A stretch of DNA of 35,172 nt from an archaeon (GTDB lineage Archaea > Aenigmatarchaeota > Aenigmatarchaeia > GW2011-AR5): contig JANQNA010000008.1 in assembly GCA_028279825.1 (NCBI GenBank), forward strand, positions 1-35,172, read 5' to 3'. A program made the position numbers and the translations under genes. A model generated the notes under the pieces. It was given only the letters and a program-made list of their open reading frames with translations. It did no database searches and was not told the origin of the DNA. Below, piece after piece: positions 1,230-10,854 of the stretch; position 1 is the stretch's first letter, and each line of letters opens with the position of its first letter.

Positions 1230-2091
1230 GATAAAGAAGAGAAACGTGAAGAAGGTTATGATCCAGCTACCTGAAGGGCTCAAGACAAAGGCAGCTGAGA
1301 TATCTGCCGCTTTGGTAGAGCATGGTATAGACTGTTTGATTTCTGCAGATCCGTGCTACGGTGCATGTGATCTTGCAGATGAAGATGCTCACGAGCGCGG
1401 ATGTGATCTTCTTGTTCACGTGGGCCACAGCAAGTTCTATCGCGACTTTGCCACAAAAGTTCCTGTGTTATATTTTCCATGGACAATCGATGTTAATCTC
1501 GAAGGTGTTGATTTTTCTGTCATTAAAGAACAAAGAATCGGCCTCCTTACAACAATACAGCACTTGTGGGCACTTTCGGAGATAAAAGTGGCCCTGGAAA
1601 AACAGGGAAAGGAGGTTGTTATAGGCGGGCAGGTTCTTGGGTGCTGGTTTGAGAACGCTGATAAACTGGATACAGACGCATTTTTGTACATAGGATCCGG
1701 CAGGTTCCATCCACTTGGTTACAGGGACAAGAAGATTTATGCCCTGGATGTGGAGAAGAAGACAATAGATGAAGTTGATACAAATCTTTTGGAGAAAAGA
1801 CGTTACGCGAACATTCATAATGCAAAAGATGCAAGAACCTTTGCTATTCTAGTAACAACGAAGAAAGGGCAGAATCAACTTCAGGGTGAAGTTGATTCAA
1901 TAAAAAAGAAACTTAGGGAGCATGGAAGAAATTACTGCGTAATTTCTTTGAACGAGATAAACGATACAAATCTTTTAGGAATCAGGGCCGATGCTTTTAT
2001 CAACACGGCCTGTCCTAGGATTATAGAAGATTCCTTCTCAAAACCGATTGTTAACGCCCAGGACCTGGAAGAACTATTCAGCCAAATGTAA
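1204..2091 (+). CDS. dph2: diphthamide biosynthesis enzyme Dph2
   Basis: 2-(3-amino-3-carboxypropyl)histidine synthase. It transfers the aminocarboxypropyl group of S-adenosylmethionine to a histidine of translation elongation factor 2, the first step of diphthamide synthesis. Three cysteine sites that hold the non-classical radical-SAM 4Fe-4S cluster are visible: C55 in PCYGACD, C147 in GQVLGCW and C270 in NTACPRI. At 295 residues it is shorter than the roughly 340 residues of well-studied archaeal homologues, but all three cluster cysteines are present. It starts inside the preceding small gene and overlaps the convergent DipZ-like gene by 14 nt. Confidence 0.95.
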   Translation: MKVEELLTEIKKRNVKKVMIQLPEGLKTKAAEISAALVEHGIDCLISADPCYGACDLADEDAHERGCDLLVHVGHSKFYRDFATKVPVLYFPWTIDVNLEGVDFSVIKEQRIGLLTTIQHLWALSEIKVALEKQGKEVVIGGQVLGCWFENADKLDTDAFLYIGSGRFHPLGYRDKKIYALDVEKKTIDEVDTNLLEKRRYANIHNAKDARTFAILVTTKKGQNQLQGEVDSIKKKLREHGRNYCVISLNEINDTNLLGIRADAFINTACPRIIEDSFSKPIVNAQDLEELFSQM

Positions 2092-3052
2092 ATGTATACA
2101 GTTCAAAACCCGGTTCTGCTGCTATTTCAACTAAGTGGCTATCAAAATCAGGCCTGGACACAATGTTGTATAACTTTTGTTCATTAATTTGCAGAGTTTT
2201 CTCAAACTTACCATCAACAAATATCTGTATACTTGCGGTTCCACCCGCTACTATGTTTACTTTTCTTGCACTGTAGACCAGAAATAACCGGGAATTTTCT
2301 ACAGCTGTTGAACTTTCAGGGCCATTTTTCCATTTACCTGACAGGTAGACAATATTTGGTTGTGTGATATTTACGGATTTGTAATCGACAACATTTCCGG
2401 GTGAGAAACCTTCCTCGTTACCCAGGGGTGCACGAGCAAAGCTATAACCAAGGTACAATTCGGGTGTGCCGGATTGTGGACGATCTACATTCGGCTTTTC
2501 GGCGTCTTCAAGATTTACACCTGTCTCCTTTAACAGTTCAATAATTGCCTGTTCTGTTTCCTGGTATGCACCTTCACCAATATGATCGTATCTTATGCTC
2601 CCATCTTTGTCTATCAGGTATTTTCTTGGCCAATAGTTATTTCCGTAGGCTCTCCATGTTTTAAAATCATTATCCTGGACTATTGGGTATTCTATTCCGA
2701 ACTGCTTTGCCGCATCCACCACATTATTGTAATCTTTTTCAAATTCGAATTCCGGTGTGTGTACACCTATAATTACGAGTCCTTTACCTGCGTATTTTTC
2801 ATGCCAACCTGTCAAATGTGGCAGAGTTCTTATGCAGTTTATACAACTATAAGTCCAGAAGTCAATCAAAACTACTTTTCCTCTTAATTCTGCTAACTCT
2901 AACGGCTCTGAATTTATCCATCTGCCTTCTGAAATTTCAGCTGCTTGACCCATGACCATCAGAGATGAATTTGTTACAGGAACCTGAAGAGTAAATGTAC
3001 CTACTAACACGAATACCGCAATAAGTCCAAAAACGATGACTTCTAATCTCAT
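2078..3052 (-). CDS. DipZ-like membrane-anchored thioredoxin with C-terminal DipZ domain
   Basis: The open frame extends to 3121, but the ATG at 3052 (MRLEVIVFGL) overlaps the ccdA stop as ATGA, giving 324 residues. It has an N-terminal membrane anchor or signal (about 4-22). A TlpA/redoxin-type thioredoxin domain follows, with active site C70-INC-C73 in TYSCINCIR. The C-terminal half matches the DipZ C-terminal region (FARAPLGNEEGFSPG, YLSGKWKNGPESS), a carbohydrate-binding-module-like fold. In mycobacterial DipZ these domains are fused to CcdA in one chain; here they follow a separate ccdA gene. CcdA probably reduces this protein outside the membrane. Its targets are unknown. Confidence 0.88.
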   Translation of the reverse strand: MRLEVIVFGLIAVFVLVGTFTLQVPVTNSSLMVMGQAAEISEGRWINSEPLELAELRGKVVLIDFWTYSCINCIRTLPHLTGWHEKYAGKGLVIIGVHTPEFEFEKDYNNVVDAAKQFGIEYPIVQDNDFKTWRAYGNNYWPRKYLIDKDGSIRYDHIGEGAYQETEQAIIELLKETGVNLEDAEKPNVDRPQSGTPELYLGYSFARAPLGNEEGFSPGNVVDYKSVNITQPNIVYLSGKWKNGPESSTAVENSRLFLVYSARKVNIVAGGTASIQIFVDGKFEKTLQINEQKLYNIVSRPDFDSHLVEIAAEPGFELYTFTFG

Positions 3053-3765
3053 TTTTTCAACTCGGTTGCCGTTGTCCCAGCCATGTAGGAAAAGAAGGCT
3101 GGTAATAAAGGAAGTATGCAAGGAGATACAAACGTTACCAGGCCTGCAATGAACGCTATGAAGAAGTTAAGCTGTCCTTCTATAACGGCACCTTCTGCAC
3201 TCACGAATAATGATGCAATTATACCAAGGTAGTTGAAGAACACAAGCAGACCTATTATGACAAGCAGAAGACCACCGATTATGTTGAAGTATTTGAGTAT
3301 TTTCTGTGACCTTTGCAGGAATCCTGATACTCTTGAAGTAAATGCTCCCGCTATCAGGAATGGTATTCCTATACCAAGTGAATATGAAAACAGAAGGAAG
3401 AATCCCGCCCCGGGTGATGTTGCGGCTAATGCATAAATCGCACCAAGGATAAATCCTACACAAGGTGTCCAGCCTATCGCAAAAGCAAGGCCGAATACGA
3501 ATGAGGTTATGTAACTATTGCTGAATCGTCTTATCTTAATCTTGTGTTCACTTGACAGAAAAGGTATTCTGTACCTTATTGCTGCTATCAACAGAAGACC
3601 AAACAGGGTTATTATTGTGCCGCCTATTATTCTCAGCAGGTTGACTGCATCAAATGCCACGTTTGCCAGTGCTGTTTGAAGAAGTACGCCAACTAAAGAG
3701 AATACTATTGTAAAGCCAAGAACAAAGAATACAGAGTTAAGAAATATGAGAGTTCTCTGATCCAT
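3049..3765 (-). CDS. ccdA: CcdA-type thiol-electron transporter, circularly permuted
   Basis: A six-helix membrane protein of 238 residues. It belongs to the CcdA family, which moves reducing equivalents from cytoplasmic thioredoxin to extracytoplasmic thioredoxin-like proteins through two membrane cysteines. The helix order is unusual. The chain begins with the segment normally seen as helix 2 (FFVLGFTIVFSLVG, about 13-26), followed by helix 3, helix 4 with C102 (GWTPCVG), helix 5 and helix 6 (about 159-180). It ends with the segment normally at the N-terminus, GLVTFVSPCILPLLP with C216 at about 208-222. Both redox cysteines are kept. It begins 4 nt after the upstream lipoprotein stop and overlaps the DipZ-like start by 4 nt, so no N-terminal piece is missing from the locus. 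Confidence 0.92.
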   Translation of the reverse strand: MDQRTLIFLNSVFFVLGFTIVFSLVGVLLQTALANVAFDAVNLLRIIGGTIITLFGLLLIAAIRYRIPFLSSEHKIKIRRFSNSYITSFVFGLAFAIGWTPCVGFILGAIYALAATSPGAGFFLLFSYSLGIGIPFLIAGAFTSRVSGFLQRSQKILKYFNIIGGLLLVIIGLLVFFNYLGIIASLFVSAEGAVIEGQLNFFIAFIAGLVTFVSPCILPLLPAFFSYMAGTTATELKK

Positions 3766-3769
3766 AACA

Positions 3770-4606
3770 TCACGACCTTGCTGCTTCTATTTTATCTATA
3801 ACATCTTGTTTCTTATAAGCTTGAAGGTCTTTTGTTACAACATCACCGTTAGAGTCCAGGATAACTTTTGTGTGCTGATAAGCAACCTGGTATTGTCTGG
3901 TGATATCTGTGTCAAAACTTTGAGTTTCATCATCATTGTAATGAACTTCAAATCCGACAATATCATCATAATTCAGCTCATTGAATGCAGCCACAATCTC
4001 CGGTTTTTCTGCTTTGCATGTAGGACACCAGTTTGCATGGAAATCAAGAAAAATTACTTTTCCTGCGTCACGTGCTTCATCAAACGCAGCAGGATCGTAT
4101 CTGTAATAATTATTTGCCAAACTTAAGTCGTCAACCATCATTACATCGTCAAGAACTGTCAATGTTCCCCAGTGGCCGTTTGCTCTATGACCAGGCTGAT
4201 TGCAGTAATAAATGAACTCACCTGCCTTGTCGGCGGTAAATTCCACAACAGTAACCTCACCTGTAGGTGTATCAGAAAATACGCTGAACTCGTCAAGCTT
4301 GAAATCGTGTGTACCGGATGTTGCGTTTATGTGCAGTCTGACCGTGTCGCCTTTGTTTACGGTTATGTCTTTTACAGAGAACTGAGGCTTGGGACCGTCT
4401 TCAAAGACAACAAAAGAATCCATGAATATCTCTATAACATTATCCTTTGGCTCCATGGAGTCTCCAGACTTTTCCATGGAGTCTCCTGTGCTTGGTTTCA
4501 TCGTAGGATCCTCTGTCGTTTGGTCGTTCATACTACCAGTCTGAGTAGTCGTGCAACCTGAAACGAACAATACAGACACAATCAGAAGAACAGCTATAAT
4601 TTTCAT
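3770..4606 (-). CDS. lipoprotein with cupredoxin and thioredoxin domains
   Basis: The 278-residue protein starts with a lipoprotein signal peptide (LFVSGC, acylated C18) and a Thr/Ser/Met-rich linker (about 19-55). A cupredoxin domain follows (about 56-153), with candidate copper ligands H100 (SGTHDF), C135, H140 and H145 (YYCNQPGHRANGHWG). The last position is usually the axial methionine, so a His there is unusual. A thioredoxin-like domain follows (about 165-278) with active site WCPTCK (C194, C197). It heads an operon with ccdA and the DipZ-like gene, so the thioredoxin domain is probably re-reduced by CcdA at the cell surface. A copper-linked thiol role is inferred. Confidence 0.9.
   Translation of the reverse strand: MKIIAVLLIVSVLFVSGCTTTQTGSMNDQTTEDPTMKPSTGDSMEKSGDSMEPKDNVIEIFMDSFVVFEDGPKPQFSVKDITVNKGDTVRLHINATSGTHDFKLDEFSVFSDTPTGEVTVVEFTADKAGEFIYYCNQPGHRANGHWGTLTVLDDVMMVDDLSLANNYYRYDPAAFDEARDAGKVIFLDFHANWCPTCKAEKPEIVAAFNELNYDDIVGFEVHYNDDETQSFDTDITRQYQVAYQHTKVILDSNGDVVTKDLQAYKKQDVIDKIEAARS
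4452..4486. repeat. short direct repeat TCCATGGAGTCTCC (two copies)
   Basis: The 14-nt unit occurs at 4452-4465 and 4473-4486, 7 nt apart. It lies inside the lipoprotein linker and encodes the repeated GDSME segments. It is most likely a small in-frame duplication in a low-complexity linker rather than a regulatory site. Confidence 0.7.
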
Positions 4607-4679: not shown

Positions 4680-5030
4680 ATGACAATGATTGCGTGGGCT
4701 TTGTTGGGAATAGCGGCATTGATAGTTATTTTGGCAATACTGATTTTTGTGTTCAAGAGGGACAAGTGGAAGGATAAACATGAGACTGATTATCGTGCTT
4801 TCTTCTGGATGGGTCTGATATGGACTCTATTTGGTGTAGGCTCGTTGTTTTTCTACCCAGGAGAGATGTTTTTCTTTTTGCCTATGGGAATAGCGTTTCT
4901 GGCTATAGGGGCTGCTAACAAGAAAAAGTGGAAGAAAAAGAAACGTACAAAGAAAGAGTTGTGGCTGGTTGTCGCAGGTCTTGTTGTGTTGCTGATTTTC
5001 GGTCTTCTGGCGTACTTTTTGATGGTTTAA
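4680..5030 (+). CDS. small integral membrane protein of unknown function (116 aa)
   Basis: The protein has about four hydrophobic segments (near 5-26, 41-60, 62-80 and 94-115). A strongly basic loop, KKKWKKKKRTKK, lies between the third and fourth segments and probably faces the cytoplasm. No catalytic motif is visible and I do not recognise the family. The ATG at 4680 sits 26 nt after TTTAAATA. It is divergent from the envelope thiol operon and upstream of rpoL with a 33-nt gap that has its own TATA-like sequence, so cotranscription with rpoL is uncertain. Confidence 0.7.
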   Translation: MTMIAWALLGIAALIVILAILIFVFKRDKWKDKHETDYRAFFWMGLIWTLFGVGSLFFYPGEMFFFLPMGIAFLAIGAANKKKWKKKKRTKKELWLVVAGLVVLLIFGLLAYFLMV

Positions 5031-5035
5031 AAACC
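5024..5035 (+). promoter_or_regulatory. TATA box for rpoL (GGTTTAAAAACC)
   Basis: A near-palindromic AT-rich element at the end of the upstream gene. Its centre is about 34 nt before the rpoL ATG, giving a predicted leader of roughly 8 nt. Confidence 0.5.
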
Positions 5036-5063
5036 TTTCTGTGCAAGAGATAAACTGGTTAAT

Positions 5064-5330
5064 ATGGAAATAGAAGTTCTTGAAAACGAGAAGGATAAAC
5101 TGAAGATAAGGGTGCATGATAATACTACTGTTCTGAATCTTGTTAACGAAAATCTCTGGAAACAGAAAGGTGTGGACCTGACAGCTGTTACGGTTGAACA
5201 CCCATATCTGTCTTATCCTGTTATAACGGTCAAATCAAAGACAGCAAAGAAGGCTTTGCTTGATGCGATTGCCCAGATAGACACGGACACAAAGGATCTC
5301 AGAAAGAAAATACAGGCTAAACTGAAATAA
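5064..5330 (+). CDS. rpoL: DNA-directed RNA polymerase subunit L (Rpo11/Rpb11)
   Basis: At 88 residues it is the normal length for the archaeal Rpb11 homologue, which pairs with RpoD (Rpb3) to form the alpha-like platform for RNA polymerase assembly. The start MEIEVLENEKDKLKIRV matches the family. So do the central NLVNENLW and VEHPYLSYPVITVK segments, which correspond to the conserved leucine-rich helix and the HPL-type strand. A C-terminal helix follows (ALLDAIAQIDTDTKDLRKK). It is followed after 37 nt by a DUF99 gene with its own TATA box. Confidence 0.93.
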   Translation: MEIEVLENEKDKLKIRVHDNTTVLNLVNENLWKQKGVDLTAVTVEHPYLSYPVITVKSKTAKKALLDAIAQIDTDTKDLRKKIQAKLK

Positions 5331-5337
5331 CCGTCTT

Positions 5338-5345
5338 CTATAAAA
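5338..5345 (+). promoter_or_regulatory. TATA box CTATAAAA for the DUF99 gene
   Basis: Centred about 26 nt before the ATG at 5368, which fits a leaderless start. Confidence 0.6.
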
Positions 5346-5367
5346 ATCTTCCGGGAAAGCCGTTCTA

Positions 5368-5910
5368 ATGAAACCGGAAGCACGGATAATTGCTTTTGAT
5401 GACTCATCATTTGGGTTCAACGACAAGAAAGTTGAAATAGTTGGGACTGTTTTCCGGTCCGGTACTCAAATGGACGGATTTGTCAAAACTATAATAGACA
5501 AGGATGGTATGGATTCTACGGAGAAGCTGATTTATTCCATTCTTACATCATGTCATTATGACCAGCTTTCTTACATAATGATAGACGGTATATGTCTTGG
5601 AGGATTCAACATCGTTGATATTGAAGCGTTATACAAGATAACAAAACTGCCCGTTATCGTTGTTATCCGGAAGCGGCCGGATATGTCAAAGTTCTTGGAA
5701 GCCATGAAGAATCTGGATGATTTTGTAAAGAGAATAATTATACTGAGTCATGCGGGAAATATATATACCTACCGTGATATATTCTATCAGAGAGCAGGAC
5801 TGACAATAAGGGAATGTGAGGAGATACTGGACAAGACCTGTGTAAATTCTAACATTCCGGAACCCCTGAGAGTTGCCCACATAATAGCTTCGGGTAAGGG
5901 CAGACCGTGA
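5368..5910 (+). CDS. DUF99 (UPF0215) family protein
   Basis: At 180 residues it is the typical DUF99 length. The hallmarks are the N-terminal ARIIAFDDSSFG, VEIVGTVFRSG, the central DGICLGGFNIVDIEAL and the following TKLPVIVVIRKRPD. DUF99 is an almost exclusively archaeal family with a fold related to endonuclease V, but no biochemical role is established as far as I know. The conserved acidic residue in AFDDS is present. It probably forms a transcription unit with the signal peptidase gene, which begins 5 nt after its stop. Confidence 0.88.
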   Translation: MKPEARIIAFDDSSFGFNDKKVEIVGTVFRSGTQMDGFVKTIIDKDGMDSTEKLIYSILTSCHYDQLSYIMIDGICLGGFNIVDIEALYKITKLPVIVVIRKRPDMSKFLEAMKNLDDFVKRIIILSHAGNIYTYRDIFYQRAGLTIRECEEILDKTCVNSNIPEPLRVAHIIASGKGRP

Positions 5911-9972: not shown

Positions 9973-10854
9973 ATGCTTCATATGACTATTGGTGTTTTTG
10001 GAAATCACAGCTTCGCTAAAAAACTAGGTAAAGAAGGAACCACGAATGACATTGCTATATGCAATCATGGAAGTTCTGAGGGAGTCTTTACGTTTGTTTC
10101 GCCTAATTCTGAAAAAATACAATCGCTTTTACAAGTGATAAACATGATAGACGTACCAATTATAGTCATAAGCGAGCTAAATGCCCAGCTTGGTGAGGAG
10201 ATAATAGCTATAGCTGAATATGGCTTTGAACATGGATTTATAGTTCTGGACGGTGTCGTGAAAGAGCAGATTGATCCACTAATCAAAGGGACATGTATAG
10301 AGAATTTTAAGGTAACAGAAAATGTGATGGAGGACATAAAACAACTAAAGTTTGAATACAGTGACGAGCTGCTAATACCTATAGACAACTATTTTGACGT
10401 CAAGAGTGTTGGCACGGTTATATTGGGCATAATGAAGGGCGGCAAGATCAAGAAGTATGACAAAGTCAATCTGGATCCGTTGGGCAAAGAGGTTATGATT
10501 AAGGGTATTCAGTCCCAGGACAAAGATTTTGAGGAAGCAGAAGCAGGAATGAGAGTTGGACTAAACCTTAAAGGTATAACAGTAGAGGATCTAAAGCGTG
10601 GCTACATAATTGGCAAGCTTGAGAAAACTAAAACTGTGAAACTCAACTTTGAGAAAAGCAAATACACCAAAGAAGTAATCAAAGAAAACGATCCTGTTTT
10701 TGTATCATCTGGTCTACAGGTGGTGGCTGGTAAAGTTAAATCAGTTCAACCTCTAGAGGTTGAACTTGAAAACGAGTTAATGCTGAACAAGAAGATACTG
10801 GTTGCCTCTACAAAGCAGAACATGCCGAGAATACTTGGAAAAGCTACTTTATAA
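9973..10854 (+). CDS. EF-Tu/SelB-like protein with degenerate GTP-binding domain
   Basis: The 293-residue protein is built like the translation GTPase SelB/EF-Tu, but the G domain is short and lacks the P-loop. The first strand reads GVFGNHSFAKKLGKEG where GxxxxGK(S/T) is expected, and no NKxD motif is visible. An EF-Tu domain-II-like barrel follows (about 132-218; SVGTVILGIMKGGKIKKYDKV, GMRVGLNLKG), then a domain-III-like C-terminal barrel (about 220-290). It is probably a non-GTPase paralogue acting in translation or tRNA/ribosome binding. The ATG at 9973 is at leaderless distance from the shared TATA box; an ATG at 9982 is also possible. Confidence 0.8.
   Translation: MLHMTIGVFGNHSFAKKLGKEGTTNDIAICNHGSSEGVFTFVSPNSEKIQSLLQVINMIDVPIIVISELNAQLGEEIIAIAEYGFEHGFIVLDGVVKEQIDPLIKGTCIENFKVTENVMEDIKQLKFEYSDELLIPIDNYFDVKSVGTVILGIMKGGKIKKYDKVNLDPLGKEVMIKGIQSQDKDFEEAEAGMRVGLNLKGITVEDLKRGYIIGKLEKTKTVKLNFEKSKYTKEVIKENDPVFVSSGLQVVAGKVKSVQPLEVELENELMLNKKILVASTKQNMPRILGKATL

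Follow-up and report, generated by a model that had tools for sequence, protein, structure and literature searches.

The membrane electron transporter CcdA occurs in an archaeon of the Aenigmatarchaeota as a natural circular permutation, in which the first transmembrane helix (TM1) follows the other five at the C-terminus. The probability of this reading, which includes that the permuted protein probably works as CcdA does, is put at about 0.9; its fold, cysteine pairing, electron transfer and partners we infer. The gene and its neighbors (Table 1) lie in a stretch of 35,172 nucleotides, here called the window.

Table 1. Features of the permuted ccdA locus, in positions of the window.
Feature	Position	Strand	Description
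Permuted ccdA	3049..3765	(-)	238 aa, order TM2-TM3-TM4-TM5-TM6-TM1
TM2-TM6 part, residues 8-169	3259..3744	(-)	DsbD_TM profile 46-208
Moved helix 1 with SPC motif	3067..3162	(-)	DsbD_TM profile 6-37
Downstream gene	2078..3052	(-)	Predicted signal-anchored protein, AhpC-TSA/TlpA-like thioredoxin domain and Thioredoxin_10 domain
Upstream gene	3770..4606	(-)	Predicted lipoprotein, cupredoxin-like and thioredoxin-like (CPTC) domains

The permuted ccdA is intact, with an ATG start and a single frame. Its product matches the Pfam family DsbD_TM in two pieces, the longer of which scores 42.1 bits (cut-off 27.1), and the second, at the C-terminus, corresponds to the beginning of the profile. It also scores 30.9 against DsbD_2, for which the curated Pfam cut-off is 24.9. 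A phmmer comparison with the CcdA of Thermus (TtCcdA, PDB 5VKV) gave the same arrangement, residues 8-187 aligning to 40-210 of the chain and residues 199-232 to 3-36 (E 5.7e-30). Since the blocks stand in swapped order against both DsbD_TM and 5VKV, the helix order is 2-3-4-5-6-1, which bears out the order claimed by the first-pass annotation. Just two cysteines are present, C102 in the TPC motif of TM4 and C216 in the SPC motif of the moved TM1, and P101-C102, S214-P215-C216, P219 and P222 are invariant in an alignment of 58 permuted proteins.

Like CcdA (PF02683 DsbD_TM/PF13386 DsbD_2; TtCcdA), the window protein has six helices, the SPC/TPC pair, similarity over all parts and thioredoxin-fold partner genes. 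Unlike CcdA, its chain runs TM2 first and TM1 last, and both its termini are predicted to be cytoplasmic rather than outside. It passes the Pfam cut-offs and has a proline-flanked cysteine in TM1 and TM4 and a thioredoxin-fold partner gene, but fails on the canonical order TM1 to TM6. By sequence, motif and context the predicted protein is a CcdA, as a permuted variant and not a canonical member. The search of the source genome, which is 91% complete, found no other DsbD_TM gene.

The order is not confined to this genome. Three block profiles (TM1, TM2-3 and TM4-6) were made from canonical proteins, and all frames of 256 loci were classified with them. This yielded 72 distinct proteins with the order TM23-TM456-TM1 (type I), each in one open frame, and 97 canonical proteins; no protein at the 256 loci carried TM1 at both ends. 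Type I order is found in relatives of the source genome (L004-L009, 65-77% identity), and homologues at 55-77% identity occur in many independently assembled genomes, including the archaeon GW2011_AR5 (L033). The first-pass annotation had suggested a search of related genomes, and homologues with the same order were indeed found in DPANN archaea, Ryanbacteria and Chloroflexota. The archaeal hosts comprise Aenigmatarchaeota, Micrarchaeota, Diapherotrites and Woesearchaeota. Confirmed type I loci number at least 29 from 371 genomes of the phylum containing Woesearchaeota and at least 21 from 295 genomes of the phylum containing Micrarchaeota. In Chloroflexota at least 14 are confirmed and contiguous matches indicate more. 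Within the CPR the order is found in the one Ryanbacteria genome only (1/287), and the Actinomycetota and Bacillota samples contributed one type I genome each among the places listed (L312; L299/L311). The gene, first treated as a single oddity, belongs to a class that is conserved and has recurred, and a different type of permutation exists elsewhere.

This recurrence bears on two readings that would remove the permutation. The source genome is a draft in eight contigs, so that a rearranged contig or a frameshift could mimic the swapped order, but the chance of such an assembly or annotation artifact is negligible: the order returns at 55-77% identity in genomes assembled independently, in single open frames and in the same operon context. 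The earlier argument against an assembly error is thereby upheld, a rearranged assembly being excluded by the recurrence. The C-terminal helix could also be an extra copy, with a normal helix 1 encoded in the same or a neighboring gene as a split CcdA. One Woesearchaeota-type locus (L219), where a second, divergent CcdA-like gene lies just upstream of the permuted one, speaks for such an arrangement. In the window, only seven sense codons (KQQGRDV) separate the previous stop from the ccdA start, so no N-terminal helix 1 is hidden there, and the gene is the sole DsbD_TM gene found in the genome. A search of 700 bases in three frames upstream of the 72 type I genes gave no convincing second helix 1 except in L219, where it belongs to a separate, complete paralogue. 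A split CcdA is therefore very improbable, and the additional N-terminal helix 1 that the first-pass annotation named as contrary evidence was looked for and excluded. Frameshift, assembly error and a hidden upstream helix 1 were each tested and rejected.

Some type I loci have unusual features. In L171 and L176, both from Chloroflexota, about 110 residues separate the TM2-3 and TM4-6 blocks, far above the usual number. The divergent, canonical-order CcdA-like gene just upstream of the permuted ccdA is found in some Woesearchaeota-type genomes, in L219 (motifs VCVLPLYPAF ... VIPCNP) and at the 5' ends of L211 and L212; it is possible that the two genes form a paired system. A Woesearchaeota genome (G066, L049) encodes a permuted ccdA (4980-5729) and a canonical one (10274-10711) 5 kb apart, together with two more DsbD_TM genes.

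In the window, the permuted ccdA sits between two genes for thioredoxin-fold proteins. The upstream gene stops 4 nt ahead of the ccdA start. Downstream, the next gene shares 4 nt with the end of ccdA (ATGA at 3049-3052); its best start is the ATG at 3052 rather than the TTG given in the mechanical ORF list. An intact gene tightly coupled on both sides, as first described, is what these boundaries and the single open reading frame amount to. The Thioredoxin_10 domain of the downstream gene is the part that is fused to CcdA in DipZ. The downstream product is likely an extracytoplasmic electron acceptor, and the upstream lipoprotein is likely a second extracytoplasmic partner. An apparent resemblance between the signal anchor of the downstream product and TM2 was set aside. 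The cupredoxin half of this lipoprotein was seen in the source genome alone among the loci compared, the relatives having the thioredoxin half only.

Canonical archaeal ccdA genes keep the same company. Of the archaeal loci, 52 of the 59 with permuted and 26 of the 28 with canonical order have a TlpA/Thioredoxin_10 gene within 500 nt downstream; a gene for a thioredoxin lipoprotein comes directly before ccdA at 16/59 and 7/28, respectively (the 59 include the Ryanbacteria locus, and flanks are short in many loci). In the source genome's own family, one genome (G012) combines this operon with a CcdA of canonical order (L010). The gene surroundings were thus kept while the order inside ccdA changed. 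At one canonical archaeal operon, a thioredoxin-reductase-like gene lies 2.5 kb upstream of ccdA (L055:1554-2486) and is a candidate electron source.

Related families offer partial parallels. DipZ uses the same two-domain reductase, TlpA-like plus Thioredoxin_10, as the downstream gene encodes, but in the window the reductase is a separate signal-anchored protein from an overlapping gene and not part of one chain. If the permuted C-terminus is cytoplasmic, a reductase fused to it would sit on the wrong side of the membrane. In two CPR loci (L285, L286), a canonical-order CcdA with APC/TPC motifs is fused to the same TlpA-Thioredoxin_10 module. DsbD and ScsB share the membrane domain and the thiol electron relay, but the window protein consists of the membrane domain only, lacks fused periplasmic domains and is permuted. 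The DsbD model NF001419 gives 14.7 bits against a cut-off of 330, which sets the protein apart from DsbD, and no NCBIfam model is matched near its cut-off. The permuted protein scores weakly against ArsG-like and other families of the DsbD type, which might hint that it has taken up a new job, such as transport of another substrate, and lost electron transfer. Such a change of function is improbable, since both cysteines and their flanking prolines are invariant, the thioredoxin-fold partner genes are retained, and the ArsG score (39.1) is far from the NF040495 cut-off of 200, by which the protein is not ArsG.

The lengths of the proteins indicate where the chain was cut. Median length is 242 aa for permuted and 240 aa for canonical proteins. 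The residues between TM1 and TM2 number 14 in permuted proteins, summed over both ends, versus 12 in canonical ones, and those between TM6 and TM1 number 24 versus 17.5. As judged from these counts, almost nothing is lost at the cut. Together with the 72 proteins of type I order, never with TM1 at both ends, the counts close the circle and bear out the circular permutation with a cut in the TM1-TM2 loop that the first-pass annotation had claimed.

The distribution of charges is consistent with unchanged helix directions. Over 58 permuted proteins, the loops predicted to lie inside carry on average 5.3 and 3.7 K+R, versus 0.0-0.8 for those outside, and both tails are short and slightly positive. 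This fits a topology in which both ends are cytoplasmic and each helix runs in its original direction, as expected if the fold and the TM1/TM4 pair are kept. CcdA has been described as a monomer whose six helices form two inverted repeats; TM1 and TM4, which bear the cysteine pair, move within a scaffold (PMC7329351). Under that scheme, there is no need for TM1 to come first. The linker of about 24 residues before TM1 could also reach a neighboring subunit, in which case TM1 would be swapped in a dimer or oligomer, each completing the CcdA fold of its neighbor. This is unlikely, as CcdA is described as monomeric (PMC7329351) and topology and linker permit closure in one chain, which makes swapping unnecessary.

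An AlphaFold model made with 58 permuted relatives reached moderate confidence (pLDDT 72.6, pTM 0.69). Its best Foldseek match in the PDB is 5VKV (probability 1.00, TM-score 0.49, E 0.013), in a sequential alignment that misses the moved helix, and no other PDB entry comes near. A canonical control of equal depth reached a pLDDT of 82.3 and a TM-score to 5VKV of 0.64. Some of this difference is to be expected, since Foldseek alignments follow the sequence order and leave the moved helix unmatched.

On the reading of a permuted but working CcdA, the chain would be cut in the cytoplasmic TM1-TM2 loop, and a short outside loop would link TM6 with TM1. The product would have six helices with cytoplasmic ends, and since the helix directions are kept, the same ring-like fold would be possible, with TM1 (C216) beside TM4 (C102). 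A C102-C216 disulfide would be reduced by cytoplasmic thioredoxin; the TM1/TM4 pair would then shift, and electrons would reach the operon's thioredoxin-fold proteins on the outer side of the membrane. The recipients would be the downstream reductase and perhaps the upstream lipoprotein. In the permuted form, the moving helix TM1 would have a free end on the cytoplasmic side.

A second permutation is found in Chloroflexota. A single 304-aa frame (L099:2757-3671) has the order TM4-5-6-1-2-3 (type II), as do six more genomes of the same order (L138-L143, 61-90% identity), seven in all, and sister genomes within that order have a canonical CcdA at about 55% identity. Type II resembles type I as a natural permutation with a new TM6-TM1 loop, but its cut falls in the TM3-TM4 loop. 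The new TM6-TM1 joint has a median of 24 residues in type I and 30 in type II.

A tree of 81 proteins, with the blocks rearranged into canonical order, was used to estimate the number of origins. Canonical and permuted proteins interleave on this tree. Forcing all type I proteins into one clade costs 189 log-likelihood units, and a single origin for all of them is rejected (p-AU 0.0015). Type II forms one clade with full support, apart from the type I proteins of Chloroflexota (joint clade p-AU 3e-5). The archaeal type I proteins without the Diapherotrites protein (L047) may have one origin, which is not rejected (p-AU 0.305); with L047 included, the p-AU is 0.788 on the full quick tree versus 0.01 on a careful subset. 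For Chloroflexota type I, a group picked after the tree was seen, a single clade is weakly rejected (p-AU 0.031). The rejection of one type I origin makes at least three permutation events likely: archaeal type I, bacterial type I and type II. The Ryanbacteria protein nests within the Woesearchaeota clade, which suggests that it was acquired by transfer. In L049, the permuted and canonical genes are not sisters, and a recent duplication there is rejected. Tandem duplication, the route proposed by the first-pass annotation, may have produced the permuted order, but about 310 loci yielded no intermediate.

Soluble proteins offer known cases of circular permutation, but the authors of an analysis from 2020 stated that they knew of none observed in membrane proteins (PMC7162841). 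The topological isomers SWEET and PnuC are likewise related membrane folds that differ in helix order (PMC7162841), but their relation is inferred from structure; the CcdA orders are linked directly by sequence similarity and operon context. Among the open-access papers covered, no relevant one was found that connects circular permutation with CcdA or DsbD. Automatic annotation likely passes the permuted proteins as ordinary or partial CcdA, because profile searches match them in two pieces.

It is quite probable that CcdA is a polytopic helical membrane protein that was naturally permuted at least three times, with cuts in two cytoplasmic loops that were both closed by a new outside TM6-TM1 loop, and that kept its job in the operon. 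The permutation is common, has long been conserved and has arisen repeatedly, all within one small protein for which a canonical structure is solved and redox assays are known. The extent to which fold and function are constrained by the order of membrane insertion can therefore be put to the test.
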